A model generated the notes under the pieces. It was given only the letters and a program-made list of their open reading frames with translations. It was not told where the DNA came from and made no database searches. A DNA stretch of 64,000 nt from Arcobacter nitrofigilis DSM 7299 (lineage in GTDB: Bacteria > Campylobacterota > Campylobacteria > Campylobacterales > Arcobacteraceae). This document shows positions 1,809 through 13,298 of this stretch, in pieces. Position 1 is the first letter of the stretch. Every line of letters starts with the position of its first letter. The translations under genes and the position numbers were made by a program. The stretch spans positions 3,100,001 through 3,164,000 of the forward strand of contig NC_014166.1 of assembly GCF_000092245.1 (NCBI RefSeq). Reading direction: 5' to 3'.

Positions 1809-3464
1809 CTATTCTCCTTCTAATAATGTTTCTGCATTTTTCACAAGATCATTTAATATAGCATGATTTAATGAATAGTCAACAGCTAAATCTATTAAAT
1901 GAACACCTTTAGAATTTACACATTTTTCTAATGTTTCAGTAAACTCTTCACAAGATGTTGGTCTGTGTCCAATTGCACCATAACTCTCTGCATATTTTAC
2001 AAAATCTGGATTGTCATAGTCAAGTCCAAATGTTTCAAATCCCATACCTGTTTGTTTCCATTTAATCATTCCAAATGCATTATCATTTAAAATTACTACT
2101 GTAATATCAAGACCAAGTCTTACCGCTGTTTCAAGCTCTTGTGAATTCATCATAAATCCACCATCACCACAAACTGCAACTACTTTTCTCTCAGGATGAA
2201 CCATTTTAGCTGTCATTGCTGATGGAAGACCAGCTCCCATAGTAGCTAAGGCATTATCTAATAATACTGTATTTGGTCTAGCTGCTTTATAATTTCTTGC
2301 AAACCAGATTTTATATACACCATTATCTAGTGTTAAAATATCTTCAGGTGCTAAAATATCTCTAATAGTTTTTACAGCTCTTTGAGGTAAAATAGGGAAT
2401 CTCATATCACCAAAATATTTAGTTAATCTAACATTGATAGTTCTAATAACTGTTTTATAAAAATCAAAATCCCAATGATCTTGTGGAGATAAAGCTCTAT
2501 TTAAATCTGTAACACTTCCTGCAATATCACCAACAACATCTAAATGAGGGAAATATGTATCATCAACTTCTGATGGAGAGAAGTTTAGGTGAATAACTTT
2601 ACAAGCATCCGGACCTTCTTCCATAAAAAATGGTGGTTTTTCAATAACATCATGCCCAACATTGATAATTAAATCAGCTGTTGAAATAGCAGCGTGAATA
2701 AAGTCATCAGCTGAAAGTGCAGCAGTTCCTAAACATAATTTGTGATTATCATCAACCACACCTTTACCCATTTGAGTAGTAAAGAATGGAATTCCTGTAT
2801 CATTAATAAAATCAGTTAAGGCATCACCTATTCTATTTCTGTTTGCCCCCGCTCCAATTAAAACCAATGGTTTTTTTGCAGATTCTATCATTCTAACTGC
2901 TTGTAAAATAGTAGTTTTATCAGCATATGGATATCTTACAGCTCTTACTGGGTAAACGTGATCTCCAGCCTCTTCTTCTGCGATATCTTCAGGTAATTCA
3001 ATATGAACTGCACCTGGTCTTTCTGCTGTTGCTACTTTAAATGCTTCTCTTACCATTGATGGAATATTATTTCCATTTACAACTTGTTTAGCATATTTAG
3101 TCATTGGTCTCATCATACCAACGATATCAATAATTTGAAATCTACCTTGTTTAGATTTTTTAATTGGTTTTTGTCCAGTAATCATCATCATTGGCATTCC
3201 ACCAAGTTGAGCATAAGCTGCTGCTGTTGCAAAGTTAGTAGCTCCAGGGCCAAGAGTAGAGATACAAACTCCAACTTTTCCTGTTAATCTACCATAAGTT
3301 GCAGCCATGAATCCTGCCCCTTGCTCATGCCTTGTTAAAACTAATTTAATGTTAGATTTTCTTAGTGATTCTAAAAAATCTAAATTTTCTTCACCAGGTA
3401 TTCCAAATATGTACTCAACGCCTTCATTTTCTAAGGCTTTTACAAATAAATCAGATGCCTTCAT
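1809..3464 (-). CDS. Thiamine-diphosphate-dependent enzyme, acetolactate synthase large-subunit-like
   Basis: This 551-residue protein has the three-domain layout of acetolactate synthase/pyruvate oxidase-like enzymes. The catalytic glutamate is E47 in RHEQGAGFMAA, and the C-terminal ThDP/Mg motif runs from 'GDGGFM' to 'LNDNAFG'. No small regulatory subunit lies nearby, which fits a catabolic (AlsS-like) or specialised ligase/decarboxylase rather than branched-chain IlvB. ATG 3464 is preceded by AAGGGA. It is the first gene of an operon with the aldehyde dehydrogenase. Annotation as 'acetolactate synthase' is by family; the aldehyde dehydrogenase partner leaves open a different alpha-keto acid substrate. 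Confidence 0.82.
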   Translation of the reverse strand: MKASDLFVKALENEGVEYIFGIPGEENLDFLESLRKSNIKLVLTRHEQGAGFMAATYGRLTGKVGVCISTLGPGATNFATAAAYAQLGGMPMMMITGQKPIKKSKQGRFQIIDIVGMMRPMTKYAKQVVNGNNIPSMVREAFKVATAERPGAVHIELPEDIAEEEAGDHVYPVRAVRYPYADKTTILQAVRMIESAKKPLVLIGAGANRNRIGDALTDFINDTGIPFFTTQMGKGVVDDNHKLCLGTAALSADDFIHAAISTADLIINVGHDVIEKPPFFMEEGPDACKVIHLNFSPSEVDDTYFPHLDVVGDIAGSVTDLNRALSPQDHWDFDFYKTVIRTINVRLTKYFGDMRFPILPQRAVKTIRDILAPEDILTLDNGVYKIWFARNYKAARPNTVLLDNALATMGAGLPSAMTAKMVHPERKVVAVCGDGGFMMNSQELETAVRLGLDITVVILNDNAFGMIKWKQTGMGFETFGLDYDNPDFVKYAESYGAIGHRPTSCEEFTETLEKCVNSKGVHLIDLAVDYSLNHAILNDLVKNAETLLEGE

Positions 3465-5856: not shown

Positions 5857-8001
5857 ATGAGAATATTGTTTATGCCATTATTTATTTTATTTTATTTATC
5901 AATAAATTCAATAGCAGAACCTATTAAATTAACCAAAGATGAAAAAAACTTTATTGCTTCACATCCCATAATAAAAGTTGGGATGATGCCTGACTTTGCA
6001 CCATTTTCATATTATATAAAAAATACTCCTGTTGGCTTTGAACATGATATATTAAAGATAATCTCTAAAAGAACAGGCTTAGAATTTGAAAAAAAAATAG
6101 ATAATTGGTCAATTATCTATAATGCATTTAAAAATAAAAAAATAGATATGATTTCTAGTATTTCATATAAAGACTATCGAGTACCCTTTACTACTTTTTC
6201 AAGCTCTTATTATGACATACCTATTATGATATTTGTAAGAGATGATTTTGGAGAATATAAAGGAATAAAAAGTCTTGCAGGTAAAAAAGTGGGGGTATTA
6301 AGAGATGTTTTCTATATCAAAGAGTTAGAAAATATAGGAACAATGAATTTAGTCTATTATGATAATTATACAGAGTTAATAGAGGCTTTAGTATTTGGTA
6401 AAATTGATGCCTTGATTCAAAATCTTACAAATATAAATTATCTTATTAAAAAAAATCTATACTCAAATTTAAAACTTGCTAGTGAATTAATTCTTCCAAA
6501 TACAAAAAAAGAGGATTTGCGTTTTGGTATTCAACCTAATGAACCACTTTTAGGTTCTATTGTACAAAAAGCTCTTGATACAATAACAAAAAAAGAGAAA
6601 GAGGATTTAGTAAATAAATGGATTGGTTCAATAAAAGAGTATAAAGGTGGTCATATTGAGCTTAATAAAGAGGAAAAAGCCTACCTAAATACAAATGTTA
6701 TTAAATATTGTATAAATCCAGATGGAATGCCCCTTGAAGGACTCAATGAAAAAGGTGAGCACTCTGGAATGAGTTCTGATTATTACAATCTGTTTGAAAA
6801 AATGCTATCTGCAAAATTTGAACTTGTAAAAACAAAAAATTGGAATGAATCAATCACTTTCATAAAAGAGCATAAATGTGATATGTTGGCTCTTGGTATG
6901 GAGACAAGGGAGAGAAGAAAATATCTAAACTTTACAAGTAGTTATCTAGAAGTTCCTTTAGTAGTAGCTACAAGAGTTGATGTGCCTTTTATAAATCAAA
7001 TACTGGACTTAGAAGGTGAAAAAATTGGTATCATAAAAGGAGATGCTTTTGTAAAAATACTTAGACAAAAGTATCCCTCTTTAAATCTTGTAGAAGTAGA
7101 AGATATCAAAGAAGGCCTAGATAAAGTTAAAAATGGTGAACTCTTTGCCTACATTGATACCTTAGCAAGTATTGGGTATGAATTTCAACAAAAATATTTT
7201 GGAGAGCTAAAAATAGCAGGAAAGATATCTGAGAACTTGAAACTTTCAATTGCTGTTGTAAAAGAAGATAAAATCTTATTGGATGTTTTACAAAAAGCTG
7301 TCAATAAAATAACAAATGAGATGCACAGAGAAATCTTTAGTAAATGGGTTCCTATAAAATATCAAAAAGGTATAGACTATGATTTAGTTTGGAAAATATC
7401 TATTGGTGCCATATTATTTATTATTCTTGTTGTTTATTGGAATAGAAAAATAATAAAAACAAATAGGTTATTACAAGAAGCAAAAAAAGACATTGAAGTA
7501 AAAAATAAAGAGTTAGAAAAACTTGCAATAACAGACAAATTAACAAATTTGTATAATAGAAGAAAATTAGATGAGTTGTTACAACATGAACTAAATAGAA
7601 GTGAAAGATTTAACCATACCTTTGGTATAGCCATTTTAGATATTGACTACTTTAAAAAAGTTAATGACACTTTTGGACATCAAGCAGGAGATAAAGTTTT
7701 AATAGAGCTTTCAAATATATTAAAAACTCATATAAGAACAACAGATTTTGTGGGTAGATTTGGGGGAGAAGAGTTTGTAATAATCTGCCCAGAGTCACAA
7801 AAAGATGGGGTATATAATTTGATGGAAAGTATACGATTAGATATAGAGAATTATACTTTTAAAGATATAGGGAAGATAACTACTAGTTTTGGTGTTACCT
7901 TATCTAAAGAAAATGACACTTCTGAATCCCTTCTAAAAAGGGCAGATATAGCACTATATGAGGCGAAAAGTCTTGGAAGAAATAGAGTTGTTATTAATTA
8001 A
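5857..8001 (+). CDS. Diguanylate cyclase with two tandem periplasmic solute-binding domains
   Basis: The 714-residue protein starts with a signal peptide (about residues 1-20). Two SBP_bac_3 modules follow, at about residues 30-265 and 275-505. Each begins with the 'I K V G M/I K Y C I N P D . . P' type strand and contains the family's 'D(M/L)ISSIS' or 'DMLALGMETRERRKYLNFT' core. One membrane helix (about 510-527), a short coiled linker and a GGDEF domain come next. The active motif is GGEEF (636-640), and the inhibitory I-site RTTD lies five residues before it (627-630). It should therefore make cyclic-di-GMP in response to a periplasmic amino-acid-like ligand, with product feedback. It is followed after 12 bases by the ABM-fold gene. 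Confidence 0.9.
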   Translation: MRILFMPLFILFYLSINSIAEPIKLTKDEKNFIASHPIIKVGMMPDFAPFSYYIKNTPVGFEHDILKIISKRTGLEFEKKIDNWSIIYNAFKNKKIDMISSISYKDYRVPFTTFSSSYYDIPIMIFVRDDFGEYKGIKSLAGKKVGVLRDVFYIKELENIGTMNLVYYDNYTELIEALVFGKIDALIQNLTNINYLIKKNLYSNLKLASELILPNTKKEDLRFGIQPNEPLLGSIVQKALDTITKKEKEDLVNKWIGSIKEYKGGHIELNKEEKAYLNTNVIKYCINPDGMPLEGLNEKGEHSGMSSDYYNLFEKMLSAKFELVKTKNWNESITFIKEHKCDMLALGMETRERRKYLNFTSSYLEVPLVVATRVDVPFINQILDLEGEKIGIIKGDAFVKILRQKYPSLNLVEVEDIKEGLDKVKNGELFAYIDTLASIGYEFQQKYFGELKIAGKISENLKLSIAVVKEDKILLDVLQKAVNKITNEMHREIFSKWVPIKYQKGIDYDLVWKISIGAILFIILVVYWNRKIIKTNRLLQEAKKDIEVKNKELEKLAITDKLTNLYNRRKLDELLQHELNRSERFNHTFGIAILDIDYFKKVNDTFGHQAGDKVLIELSNILKTHIRTTDFVGRFGGEEFVIICPESQKDGVYNLMESIRLDIENYTFKDIGKITTSFGVTLSKENDTSESLLKRADIALYEAKSLGRNRVVIN

Positions 8002-8013
8002 AAAGGAGTATCT

Positions 8014-8358
8014 ATGTACGCAGTAATATTTGAAGTTTGGCCAAATAGAAATGGCAAAGAAGAGTATTTAAACATAGCCTCACAGTTAAAACTGTTTTTA
8101 GAAGAGCAAAAAGGTTTTATCTCAATAGAGAGGTTTCAAAGTCTAACAAACCAAGATAAACTCCTGAGTCTATCTTTTTGGGAAGATGAAGGGGCTATTA
8201 CTATCTGGAGAAACTTATTAGAACATAGAATCGCTCAAAAAAAAGGACGAAATGAACTTTTTGATGACTATCGTATTAGAGTTTCTGAAGTTGTTAGAGA
8301 TTATAGTATGAGTCAAAGAAATGAGATTCCCGAAGATTCAAAAGATATAAATGTATGA
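8014..8358 (+). CDS. Antibiotic biosynthesis monooxygenase (ABM) fold protein
   Basis: This 114-residue protein has the ferredoxin-like ABM pattern: N-terminal strand 'YAVIFEVWPN', then a helix, 'GFISIERFQS', 'LLSLSFWEDEGAITIWRN' and 'HRIAQKKGR'. Small ABM proteins act as haem-degrading or quinone/flavin-free oxygenases or as stress proteins; the substrate is unknown here. AAGGAG precedes ATG 8014. It closely follows the diguanylate cyclase and overlaps the next small gene by ATGA, so the three may be cotranscribed. Confidence 0.75.
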   Translation: MYAVIFEVWPNRNGKEEYLNIASQLKLFLEEQKGFISIERFQSLTNQDKLLSLSFWEDEGAITIWRNLLEHRIAQKKGRNELFDDYRIRVSEVVRDYSMSQRNEIPEDSKDINV

Positions 8359-9373: not shown

Positions 9374-9739
9374 TTAATCCATATCCCTAAGTTCTAGAAT
9401 TTTTGTCTCTAACCCTTCTAGTTCATTAGAACAAATATCAAAAACTGTTTCAGCATCAATATCTACATAATGATGAGATATAAAATCTCTAGTTTTTATA
9501 ATTCTGCTCCAATAACCTTTATCTGCTACTTTTAAAAGTAGCTTCTCTTCTCTTTTATTAAGATTTTTTAGTGTCTCTCCAATAGCTTGTATTCTCATTG
9601 AAATAGCATCTAATTTATCAAGTCCATCATCTGAATTCAAAAAGTCATCACTTGATTTAATATTTTTAAATCTTCTATTTATAAGGCTAATACTTTCTAA
9701 AATAAAATTAATAAGTTCAATAGTTGTTGCTTTATTCAT
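9374..9739 (-). CDS. hepT: HepT-like RNase toxin (DUF86)
   Basis: The protein has 121 residues when started at ATG 9739 (AAGAAG upstream); a longer frame from 9778 would lie inside the partner gene. It is an all-helical DUF86/HepT protein with the RX4HXY ribonuclease motif as R84-DFIS-H89-H-Y91, the tyrosine being the known AMPylation target in HepT. The start overlaps the end of the nucleotidyltransferase gene by 8 bp, the classical antitoxin-first order. It probably acts as a cytoplasmic RNA-cleaving toxin neutralised by its partner. All motif residues are intact. Confidence 0.88.
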   Translation of the reverse strand: MNKATTIELINFILESISLINRRFKNIKSSDDFLNSDDGLDKLDAISMRIQAIGETLKNLNKREEKLLLKVADKGYWSRIIKTRDFISHHYVDIDAETVFDICSNELEGLETKILELRDMD

Positions 9740-10022
9740 AGATAACTTCTTTTTGGATTTCATCAAAAATAGCACCATTGCTTCTTTTGTGTTTGTGCAT
9801 CAAATCTATTTTTTTATTATAAAGTTCTTCCAAAAACACCCATAAACCTGAAATGTTTTTAAATGTTTTATTTTTAAATTCTACATAAATATCAATATCA
9901 CTATTTTCAGTTTGCATATCTTTTACATAACTTCCAAATAGTCCAATTTTATCAACTTCAAAAGTATTTTGTATGTAATCTTTTTTCTCCGAAAGTTTTT
10001 CTAAGATATCTTTTTTTGTCAT
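9732..10022 (-). CDS. mntA: MntA-like minimal nucleotidyltransferase antitoxin
   Basis: This 96-residue minimal nucleotidyltransferase has a perfect GSX10DXD signature: G30-S31, then ten residues to D42-I-D44. In the type VII HepT/MntA system the enzyme transfers AMP groups to the toxin tyrosine and blocks it. ATG 10022 has AAAGGAAT upstream. It is first in a two-gene operon with hepT, overlapping by 8 bp. The pair sits next to a repeat-like intergenic element and a patch of unknown membrane genes, as is usual for such mobile modules. Confidence 0.88.
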   Translation of the reverse strand: MTKKDILEKLSEKKDYIQNTFEVDKIGLFGSYVKDMQTENSDIDIYVEFKNKTFKNISGLWVFLEELYNKKIDLMHKHKRSNGAIFDEIQKEVIYE

Positions 10023-10500
10023 TTAGATTCCTTTGATAATGGGTAAATGTTATTATAACAAAATCTTCTTATTAAATAAAATCATGAACGTATAGATATT
10101 GTAATTATTAACTTTGTTAGTTTTATGATTTAGGTTATTTTTTGTGACGGGCTTTTGCTCTTGAAGACCTAAAGGTCTCCGCTTTTTCACTTTTTAGTGG
10201 TAAAAAGTAAAACAAAAAGCCACCAGCCGAGTTGTTAAAGGCAAAGCTCCCCTCACACTTCACTTTTTAAAGCTAGCCTGCAAAACTCGTCGAAAAAGTG
10301 CATTTAGCACTTTTCTCTCCTCAAACAGTTTCGGCTTTTTCCGCTTAAAAAAGCAAAGCACTCGGCTTTAACAAAGGCTGGGTTATTATAGTTTTAACTG
10401 AAATAAGAATTCATCCTCTGGGGTATGATTGTAATTTTAAAATAATTACTTTTAGATTTATTTCCATATAATTTATATAACTTTTATTACGAGGGAACAA
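10023..10500. other. Long intergenic region with a structured element
   Basis: This gene-free stretch of about 480 bases contains the mntA promoter on the left and the promoter of the next + strand gene on the right. In the centre is a block (10147-10382) that is visibly richer in G and C than its surroundings and full of inverted repeats; it is listed separately. I see no open reading frame with a ribosome site. Confidence 0.7.
10147..10382. repeat. Composite inverted-repeat element, possible nonautonomous mobile or structured RNA element
   Basis: The block contains nested palindromes. AGACC/GGTCT (10165-10178, loop TAAA) comes first. Next is GCTTTTT (10181-10187) / AAAAAGC (10214-10220), enclosing ACTTTTT / AAAAAGT. 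AAAGTGC / GCACTTT lies around 10295-10313, and GCTTTTT / AAAAAGC around 10334-10353. An imperfect outer pair joins 10223-10242 (CCAGCC...TTGTTAAA..GC) with 10364-10381 (GG.TTTAACAA..GGCTGG). Composition differs from the flanks. It has no coding potential that I can support. It may be a MITE-like repeat, a decayed insertion or a structured RNA. Confidence 0.55.
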
Positions 10501-11638: not shown

Positions 11639-11908
11639 TTATTCCTTTATTATAAAATAAAAAATACCTGCAATTATTGTGCCTAAAAATATAGTTATTT
11701 TCAAATCTTTTTTTTGTTCTACTGTCCAAGGGTTTTTATTTCTATGGAGAATCATTTGCTTAACTCCAAAATATAAACCTGTTAATAATATTAAACAAAA
11801 GACAAATAAAGCAAAAGGGTTTTCTAGCACTACTTTAAAATAAAAGATTATATGTATAACCATATCTGTAAACTGGTCTAAAAAATCTACTTTTCTTTCT
11901 ATTCTCAT
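11639..11908 (-). CDS. Hypothetical membrane protein, 89 aa
   Basis: ATG 11908 is chosen over an upstream ATG at 11938 because GAGGAA lies seven bases before it. The product has two membrane helices (about residues 20-45 and 66-85) separated by a basic loop. It is cotranscribed with the next membrane gene. It has no recognisable family. It may form a small membrane complex with its partner, which is inference from context only. Confidence 0.55.
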   Translation of the reverse strand: MRIERKVDFLDQFTDMVIHIIFYFKVVLENPFALFVFCLILLTGLYFGVKQMILHRNKNPWTVEQKKDLKITIFLGTIIAGIFYFIIKE

Positions 11909-11958
11909 AACGTATTCCTCATAACTAAAAATTCTCAAATAATCTCACAAAACTAAAA

Positions 11959-12072
11959 ATAGTAAATTTTGTTAAAGTTCAAGGCCAGAGGAGAAATTGG
12001 AATGGGAGCATACTAAAGTATGTGACTATTTCAATTTCGACGATAACGCCGAAATTTGACAAAAGTTACTAT
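11959..12072. repeat. 114-bp imperfect palindromic element
   Basis: The two halves of this segment pair along nearly their whole length. The outer arms are ATAGTAA-TTTTGT-AAA-TTC at 11959-11980 and its complement at 12051-12072. An inner stem GAAATTG / CAATTTC lies at 11992-11998 and 12032-12038, and the tip is CATAC-TAAA-GTATG. The end overlaps the last codons of the flavoprotein gene. It could act as a very long terminator-like hairpin for both flanking - strand genes, or it may be a REP/MITE-like repeat. It is too long and too regular for an ordinary terminator. Confidence 0.7.
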
Positions 12073-13298
12073 TTTATTGCTAGGCTACGCCCAGCTATGT
12101 AACCTGATGCCCACGCGAAGTGTAGATTATATCCACCCCTATTGCCCACTATATCTAAAACCTCTCCTACTAAATACAACCCTTCAATTTTCTTACTCTC
12201 AAAAGTTCTATTATCCACCTCATCAGTTCTCACTCCGCCGCCACTTGCTTCTGCGTGTTTGAAACCTTGGGTGTCTGTGATTTTAAATCTCCAGTTTGTG
12301 AGAGTATTTATTAGACTTCTTATTTGTTTGGCGTTTATATCTTTTGCTTTTGTCTCTTTATCTATGCCGTTTATTTGACATATTACAGGAGAGAGTTTAT
12401 TTGACACTATTCCTGTTAGTAGTAAGACTGCATTTGAGTTTGGTAGGGTTTTAAATAGGTTTTCTATTTGTCCTAGAAGTTCATTTCGGCTCATATTTGG
12501 GAAAAGGTTTATTGATAGTTGAACATCTTGGTAAAGGCTTAGAGGATATACTGCGTGTTGTGAAATATCTAGAATAGCAAATCCTGATAATCCGTATTTT
12601 GTAAAAAGTACGTCACCATATATTTCACACTCTTTTTTTCCATCAAGATATAAAGATACATTTGCCTCTTTTTTTACCCCTTGTATTCTTGAAGCTTGTT
12701 CAAAATCTGTATGAAGTCCTACAAGTGAGGGGTAAGTTAGGTTGTAGGTGTGTCCAAATTTTTGAGCTATATTCATACCCTCTTCTGTCGCGTTTAATTG
12801 TGGAGCGGCACCTAGACCTGAGCTAATTACTACTTTGTCATAATCTTTAAACTCTTTATCTTCACTTTTTACTGTGAATTTATTTTTTGTTTTTTCTATA
12901 TCTATTACTTTCGTCTCTAGAATTAGATTTACTCCTAGGTTTTCAAGTTCATTTTCTAATAGATTTACTACTGATTTTGCTTCATTTGATAGGGGATATA
13001 CTTTATTTGTCTCTTTTATATCAAGTAAGAGACCAATACTTTTACAAAATTTTTCAAAAGCTTTATAATCAAACTCTTTTAAGGCATAACTTGCAAAGTT
13101 TGGATTCTCTCCTATAAAGTTCTCTACTCCGGCTTGAGTATTTGAGATATTACATCTTCCATTTCCACTTGCTAGTATTTTTTTACCTATGGCATTGTTA
13201 TTATCGAAGAGGTCTATTTTTATATTTTTGTTTAATCTTTTGGCAGTGATGGCAGATATTATTCCTGCTGCTCCTGCTCCTATTATTGCTATTTTCAA
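12069..13298 (-). CDS. BaiN/HI0933-like NAD(P)/FAD-dependent oxidoreductase
   Basis: This 409-residue flavoprotein has the dinucleotide-binding motif GAGAAG (residues 7-12) at its start, 'GKKILASGNGRCNISN' (FAD contact) near residue 43, and the C-terminal 'GLYLVGEVLDIVGNRGGYNLHFAWASGYIAG' FAD-closing segment. This is the HI0933/YhiN/BaiN family, whose physiological substrate is unknown in most bacteria. The N-terminal methionine at 13298 is at the start of the Rossmann strand, so the start is fixed by the fold. Its last codons run into the long palindrome at 11959-12072. Confidence 0.85.
   Translation of the reverse strand: MKIAIIGAGAAGIISAITAKRLNKNIKIDLFDNNNAIGKKILASGNGRCNISNTQAGVENFIGENPNFASYALKEFDYKAFEKFCKSIGLLLDIKETNKVYPLSNEAKSVVNLLENELENLGVNLILETKVIDIEKTKNKFTVKSEDKEFKDYDKVVISSGLGAAPQLNATEEGMNIAQKFGHTYNLTYPSLVGLHTDFEQASRIQGVKKEANVSLYLDGKKECEIYGDVLFTKYGLSGFAILDISQHAVYPLSLYQDVQLSINLFPNMSRNELLGQIENLFKTLPNSNAVLLLTGIVSNKLSPVICQINGIDKETKAKDINAKQIRSLINTLTNWRFKITDTQGFKHAEASGGGVRTDEVDNRTFESKKIEGLYLVGEVLDIVGNRGGYNLHFAWASGYIAGRSLAIK

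Follow-up and report, generated by a model that had tools for sequence, protein, structure and literature searches.

Why does a palindrome of more than a hundred bases close the reading frame of a flavoprotein gene in Arcobacter nitrofigilis DSM 7299, and is it peculiar to this locus? The initial annotation of the window, which is the whole stretch of 64,000 nucleotides analysed here (contig NC_014166.1, positions 3,100,001 to 3,164,000), had placed a near-complete palindrome at 11959-12072, overlapping the end of that gene. An inverted-repeat search of the window recovered arms at 11956-12014 and 12017-12075, which are 71% complementary and separated by a gap of 2 nt. With bulges allowed, the strand folds as a single rod of -47.6 kcal/mol, compared to -22.7 ± 3.9 kcal/mol for 200 dinucleotide shuffles (z -6.4), none of which equalled it. 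The palindrome is real; symmetric ends give 11960-12071 (112 bp), which moves the first limits by at most one base. The tip had been read correctly (CATACTAAAGTATG at 12009-12022) and so had the overlap with the gene, whose stop codon TAG is formed by the final three bases of the palindrome. The features of the locus, in window coordinates, are as follows.

11960-12071, plus strand (motif A first; antisense to the flavoprotein gene): whole element, very probably of the ERIC family, from its fold and model R1
11960-11965, plus strand: left terminal repeat TAGTAA with TA at its end, from the sequence
11978-11985, plus strand: motif A, TTCAAGGC, from alignments A1 and A2
11986-12004, plus strand: 5' arm of the inner stem, of copy-specific sequence, from the alignment of copies and covariation
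12005-12025, plus strand: tip, GGAGCATACTAAAGTATGTGA, from the family and cross-phylum alignments
12026-12044, plus strand: 3' arm of the inner stem, from the alignment of copies and covariation
12045-12053, plus strand: motif B, AACGCCGAA (family form AACGCAGAA), from alignments A1 and A2
12061-12065, plus strand: motif C, AAAAG, opposite ATTTT, from information content at offsets 7-11 after motif B
12066-12071, plus strand: right terminal repeat TTACTA; 12069-12071 is the flavoprotein stop codon TAG on the minus strand
12069-13298, minus strand: HI0933-like flavoprotein gene (PF03486) ending inside the element, from tblastn and Pfam
11639-11938, minus strand: reading frame of 99 codons downstream of the element, from tblastn and a Pfam scan

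The 99-codon frame had no Pfam match and no counterpart at the other flavoprotein loci fetched. A scan against Rfam 15 gave no match at or above the gathering score in the window, and none on the element in 18 loci at E <= 1. A few genes downstream of the element, a HepT-like ribonuclease gene overlaps a nucleotidyltransferase gene (window 9374-10022, minus strand), and the two are probably a HepT/MntA toxin-antitoxin pair.

Copies and covariation of the palindrome

Searching with the element by blastn, we found divergent copies in its own genome and in 40 of the 104 genomes of the taxonomic family. Alignment A1, from which the covariance model R1 was made, consists of 38 distinct family copies, and these have in common TTCAAGGC, the tip GGAGCnTAC-loop-GTAnGTGA, AACGCAGAA and AAAAG, with spacing that hardly changes between copies; motif A is nearly invariant, and the stems between the motifs differ. 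The outer arms had been described as the best conserved part; in the family, it is instead the short internal-loop motifs and the tip that are conserved best. R1 matches the window element with 142 bits (3111942-3112089 in the genome, 11942-12089 in the window). In the genome of the window (G000, 3.19 Mb) it finds 21 sites at E <= 2e-5 and a weak one (0.002), giving the 22 sites used, with a further match at E 0.83 and two rows on the opposite strand set aside; two congeners have 22 (G001) and 27 sites, one opposite-strand row being excluded. Across the family, 83 of 104 genomes contain copies, as do 18 of 20 genera. Of 397 genomes sampled from the phylum, 86 had matches; 55 of these genomes lie outside the family, many with weak matches, and many matches of the sample fall near E 1e-4 and may be due to chance.

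The stems of the copies vary freely in sequence yet remain paired. In the predicted structure of A1, 92.9% of the cells are paired, compared to 34.6-45.4% when the partners are slid, both sides have changed in 20 of 31 pairs, and covariation reaches 0.452 against at most 0.105 for slid partners. Across phyla, the loci listed from a motif scan gave a stem covariation of 0.554, against at most 0.176 when slid. A search of the whole genome had been advised at the outset, with single-copy occurrence and a lack of covariation named as what would speak against a repeat; the element is clearly multi-copy and its stems covary.

Relation to ERIC and spread over phyla

Genome contigs were scanned for motif A and the tip with the pattern TCAAGGCN{17,21}GGAGCNTACN{3,7}GTANGTGA, which returned at least 119 stretches, 80 of which were examined. 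Among the matches listed are Citrobacter, Rahnella, Serratia, Buttiauxella, Salmonella, Alistipes, Fulvivirga, clostridial and desulfobacterial records, and Arcobacter. R1, which was built from the 38 family copies only, matches 71 of the 80 loci listed at E <= 0.1, leaving nine without a match. Motif B is conserved in these loci though it lay outside the search pattern, while TCAAGGC of motif A, which was in the search pattern for most rows, is invariant in all 49 rows of the cross-phylum alignment A2. In the enterobacterial matches, the sequences of the ERIC primers can be read with 1-4 differences.

The E. coli ERIC consensus, as given in PMC2759123, displays the same motifs in the same order as the window family. 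Aligned with the window element it scores 1, whereas 1000 shuffles have a mean of -30.5 (sd 9.0) and a maximum of -3; the alignment exists in one orientation only, the reverse scoring -27. The consensus also folds to the same kind of rod, and in E. coli ATCC 8739 R1 detects the element that lies between wcaE and wcaF, with 31 bits (E 1e-4); 57 of the 82 R1 match rows were used for the comparison with the consensus and for the analysis of enterobacterial neighbours. Since the overall identity is only 51%, the argument is carried by the motifs, their order, the geometry and the model. In view of the shared motifs and their order, the one-orientation alignment and the match of R1 to the E. coli element, the window palindrome very probably belongs to the ERIC family in the wider sense.

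As in ERIC, IRU or RU-1, we are dealing with an imperfect palindrome of about 110-130 bp (roughly 127 bp for ERIC and 112 bp for the window element) that forms a single rod. The core GGAGCnTAC..GTAnGTGA, with CAAGGC and AACGCAG on opposite arms, is found in the same order; the copies are several to many, scattered, intergenic and near gene ends; and the ends carry TA and a terminal inverted repeat, TAGTAA...TTACTA, which was checked in the window copy. In contrast to ERIC, the Arcobacter element has A+T-rich, copy-specific stems and, within the genus, a fixed polarity behind genes, and the similarity lies in the motifs and not in the stems.

With some 20 copies of an ERIC-type family in an Arcobacter genome, the repeat is not solely enterobacterial and is spread over several phyla. 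We met this group of elements in enterobacteria, where it coincides with ERIC/IRU, and also in Bacteroidota, Bacillota and desulfobacteria. A cross-phylum model, R2, gave 1 to 124 matches at E <= 0.001 in the genomes behind fourteen of the loci, including 22 in an Alistipes MAG, 33 in a clostridial MAG, 77 in Fulvivirga imtechensis, 124 in a deltaproteobacterial MAG, 68 in a Desulfobacteraceae MAG and 53 in Rahnella; these counts include loci on which R2 was trained, and several of the genomes are metagenome bins in which stray contigs are possible, while those of Fulvivirga and Rahnella are isolates. PMC10969869 describes Enterobacteriaceae and Vibrionaceae as the hosts of ERIC; the Arcobacter element falls outside this range, which describes known hosts and is not a defining trait. 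Within the mostly open-access literature covered by our search for a wider distribution, ERIC was not reported from Campylobacterota, Bacteroidota or Bacillota. Judging by the sequences, the family thus reaches beyond enterobacteria and vibrios, the hosts to which the reviews consulted restrict ERIC.

Position at gene ends and turnover at shared sites

When the element is read with TTCAAGGC first, the gene on its 3' side points towards it in 69 of the 71 copies of the three congeners. For 63 of these 69, the stop codon of that gene is found 5-44 nt ahead of the sense-strand motif TTCTGCGTT. The genes that end at an element in this genus are mostly housekeeping genes: the model scans gave rho, fabI, uvrB, the ribonucleotide reductase beta subunit, mnmE, gyrB, lepA, htpG, dxs and guaB, profile matches added the flavoprotein, an AP endonuclease, purH, a signal-peptide-peptidase-like protease, secF and EF-P, and metH was named by reading of the sequence. 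Three copies, in three genomes, follow a tRNA-Asn pair, and another family of the order has two copies next to the SRP RNA gene, overlapping its last few bases (L184 1410-1647, L186 1409-1647). Many family copies end in T runs. By blastp, the element is present in all three congeners at fourteen groups of adjacent genes, one being a tRNA-Asn site, and in two congeners at further groups. The flavoprotein site is common to other genera, as tblastn placed the orthologue beside an element in many further genomes.

Outside the family, the polarity rule is kept in Alistipes (5/5), mostly kept in Anaerovorax (11/14), a clostridial bin (7/9) and Lysobacterales (4/5), weak in Rahnella (6/9) and broken in Fulvivirga (8/19) and Desulfobacteraceae (9/20); for these groups 84 of 86 rows were used, and three of the 84 were left out as lying inside long reading frames or having no gene on that side. 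In mixed enterobacteria it holds in 12 of the 23 loci with both neighbours read. In one genome (G076, locus L194), elements at 3005-3155 and 7893-8039 separate two ammonium-transporter-like genes from the PII-like genes behind them (names given by reading), inside apparent operons.

At sites shared by the three congeners, the elements are either near-identical or largely different, independently of protein similarity. The dxs element has a value of 0.95 between G000 and G002 and of 0.72 to G001, and the fabI element 0.96 between G000 and G001 and 0.74 to G002. At mnmE, htpG and gyrB the congeners share the outer arms but differ in the inner hairpin, while dxs displays the reverse (both by eye). 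The window element is 95% identical to that of G091, though the flavoproteins are 73% identical; in the congener G001 the flavoprotein is 93.6% identical and the stems of the element are different. Such patterns suggest that the element may turn over in place.

Presence at a given site is variable as well, since the lepA 3' end carries the element in 19 of the 50 genomes examined. By eye, G025 and G026 have a shortened remnant, while in G001, G028, G054 and G059 the synonymous last codons of the carriers are kept and the element is absent. Because these element-free genomes keep the carriers' codons, the pattern reads as loss. Among the lepA 3' ends of the 50 genomes we observed no clean empty site with a target duplication, the element-free ends looking like losses or being unrelated. 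We also considered whether the 3' arm is an inverted copy of the last codons of the gene, which is striking at lepA and dxs. Over 60 copies the own pairs scored 14.9, compared to 13.7 ± 3.2 for foreign pairs, with only 7 of 60 in the top 5%, and no such rule is claimed.

The rho locus differs among the congeners. In G002, rho is followed by the element and a gene of 192 codons; in G000 a gene of 1044 codons lies in between; and in G001 the same place holds two genes (read as HipB- and HipA-like), another element with 94% identity to the first, and more genes. A cassette-like event or the duplication of a repeat may lie behind this single case. A hotspot for the insertion of defence genes was considered and dropped, rho being the single good locus. 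Another repeat-like stretch, of a different kind and about 250 bp long (CAACATCTACAGAAGC...), precedes the 192-codon gene behind rho (L188 ~3100-3450, L187 ~9970-10300); it is found at the same place in G000 and G001 and is absent in G002.

Strand asymmetry and origin of the element

Single mismatches within the inner stem point to the strand that folds. In 119 copies read with TTCAAGGC first, nearly all from Campylobacterota genomes of the family, we counted 92 G.T against 13 A.C, 23 A.G against 18 C.T and 10 G.G against no C.C; the other strand would show the complements, and these and the following counts come from related copies and are not independent events. Again, in 111 copies from other groups the stems have 154 G.T against 22 A.C, while the flanks have 17 against 29; a Clostridia genome (a bin) is an exception, with 6 and 7. 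The bias holds whichever way the neighbouring genes run, with G.T to A.C ratios of 20:1 for '++' (12 copies), 38:3 for '--' (23), 26:0 for convergent (16) and 26:3 for divergent neighbours (18). It therefore belongs to the element and not to the surrounding mRNA, and one strand is the folded form. The folding energies of the 119 copies average -47.5 kcal/mol for the TTCAAGGC-first strand and -33.8 kcal/mol for the sense strand, and are lower for the former in 116 of 119. The better-folded strand is thus the TTCAAGGC-first strand, whether as RNA or as single-stranded DNA. In the family, the inner-stem mismatches look like those of RNA, with G.T at 92:13 and A.G at only 23:18; outside it, the 111 copies have 189 A.G against 16 C.T, an excess that fits DNA as well as RNA.

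Several explanations compete for a hairpin in this position. The stem behind the stop codon, at 5-44 nt in 63 of 69 copies, the U tract of some copies, the T runs of many and the copies behind the tRNA-Asn pair and the SRP RNA would all suit a long intrinsic (Rho-independent) terminator and nothing more. However, terminators do not need conserved loop motifs at fixed spacing over 148 positions, homologues in other phyla would be left unexplained, and it is the sense transcript that folds worse in 116 of 119 copies, which makes this reading quite improbable. A cis-acting structured RNA selected in Arcobacteraceae, either a 3'UTR regulator or an antisense small RNA, whose likeness to ERIC is due to descent and whose function is now regulatory, would account for the polarity of 69 out of 71, for the orthologous core genes that carry the element in three congeners, for the flavoprotein site common to other genera and for the RNA-like mismatches of the inner stem. 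We consider it unlikely, because the folded strand is antisense to the gene, the strand preference persists in genomes where polarity is free, and sites are easily lost, as at lepA. Besides, a search before the element, compared with the other strand, found no TATAAT-like peak or shared promoter-like motif from which an antisense RNA could start.

Recombination offers two further candidates. The attC sites of integrons fold on the bottom strand, lie behind stop codons and have the end boxes RYYYAAC and GTTRRRY. The element resembles them in its one-strand folding and its location, and an attC-like hairpin site at which cassettes enter behind genes could explain why the inserts at rho differ among G000, G001 and G002, with a second, 94% identical element in G001. 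Nevertheless, inspection by eye showed none of these boxes at the copy ends, the outer arms lack conservation, the copies are dispersed instead of forming arrays, and rho is a single event whose second element could equally be a duplicated repeat, so that an attC-like origin is highly improbable. As for a REP element moved by a RAYT (Y1) transposase, the element is indeed palindromic, intergenic and at gene ends, as are the REP/BIME repeats at gene 3' ends; the REP units described in PMC3733652 are 20-40 bp long. The family has no link to Y1_Tnp, which occurs in 31 of the 104 family genomes and does not follow the number of copies: G001 lacks Y1_Tnp and has 22 elements, and G041 has 17 Y1_Tnp matches and no element. 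A RAYT-driven origin is hence barely credible. The REP-like part of the first proposal falls with it, while the MITE-like dispersed repeat proposed alongside stands, supported by some 21 sites in this genome, by copies in 83 of the 104 genomes of the family and by the relation to ERIC. Ten of the 17 Y1_Tnp matches of G041 are of equal strength, which looks like a recent burst of an IS200-type element.

Overall, the best explanation is that the palindrome is a member of ERIC/IRU, a small, non-autonomous, hairpin-forming dispersed repeat, and we regard the explanation as a whole as likely. The TTCAAGGC-first strand, as single-stranded DNA or RNA, would be recognised when the element is copied or swapped, and we give an even chance to the folded single strand being the mobilised form. 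Once landed behind a stop codon, the element would endow the transcript with a long 3' hairpin, either tolerated or used as a terminator or stability element. Our best guess is thus a non-autonomous hairpin element that is tolerated or used as a 3'-end hairpin; a useful role at the 3' end in the window's genus is possible, if somewhat doubtful. In Yersinia, ERIC changes the stability of the upstream mRNA in an orientation-dependent manner, according to work cited in PMC2229807. Speculatively, ERIC might be a minor branch of an ancient, cross-phylum hairpin family, in which some factor recognises the folded strand, copies it and swaps inner and outer hairpin segments in place, and which settled in Arcobacteraceae, perhaps also in Alistipes, as a polarity-locked 3'-end element of housekeeping genes.

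Among other known systems, the Correia/NEMIS elements of Neisseria are also small palindromic MITEs near genes that give hairpin transcripts, but their termini and core differ from those of the window element. Processing of NEMIS by RNase III is reported in PMC2229807 and PMC10969869. Stav et al. 2019 (PMC6429828) describe candidate structured ncRNAs of Arcobacter sp. L, which are likewise conserved, structured intergenic elements of the same bacterial group, and the window element might conceivably be identical to one of the unnamed motifs of that study.

ERIC has been recognised since about 1990 and gives its name to a widely used typing PCR, and we know of no mobilising enzyme for elements of this type. 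If the family spans several phyla, the mobilising factor must be widespread or host-supplied, and it could be sought by comparing carriers with non-carriers. The strand bias makes a concrete and testable claim, namely that one folded strand matters, and the orthologous sites with swapped inner hairpins are natural experiments. Finally, ERIC-PCR has also been applied to the typing of Arcobacter, in literature that gives both primer sequences; true family members are present there, though the stems, where much of each primer would bind, differ.
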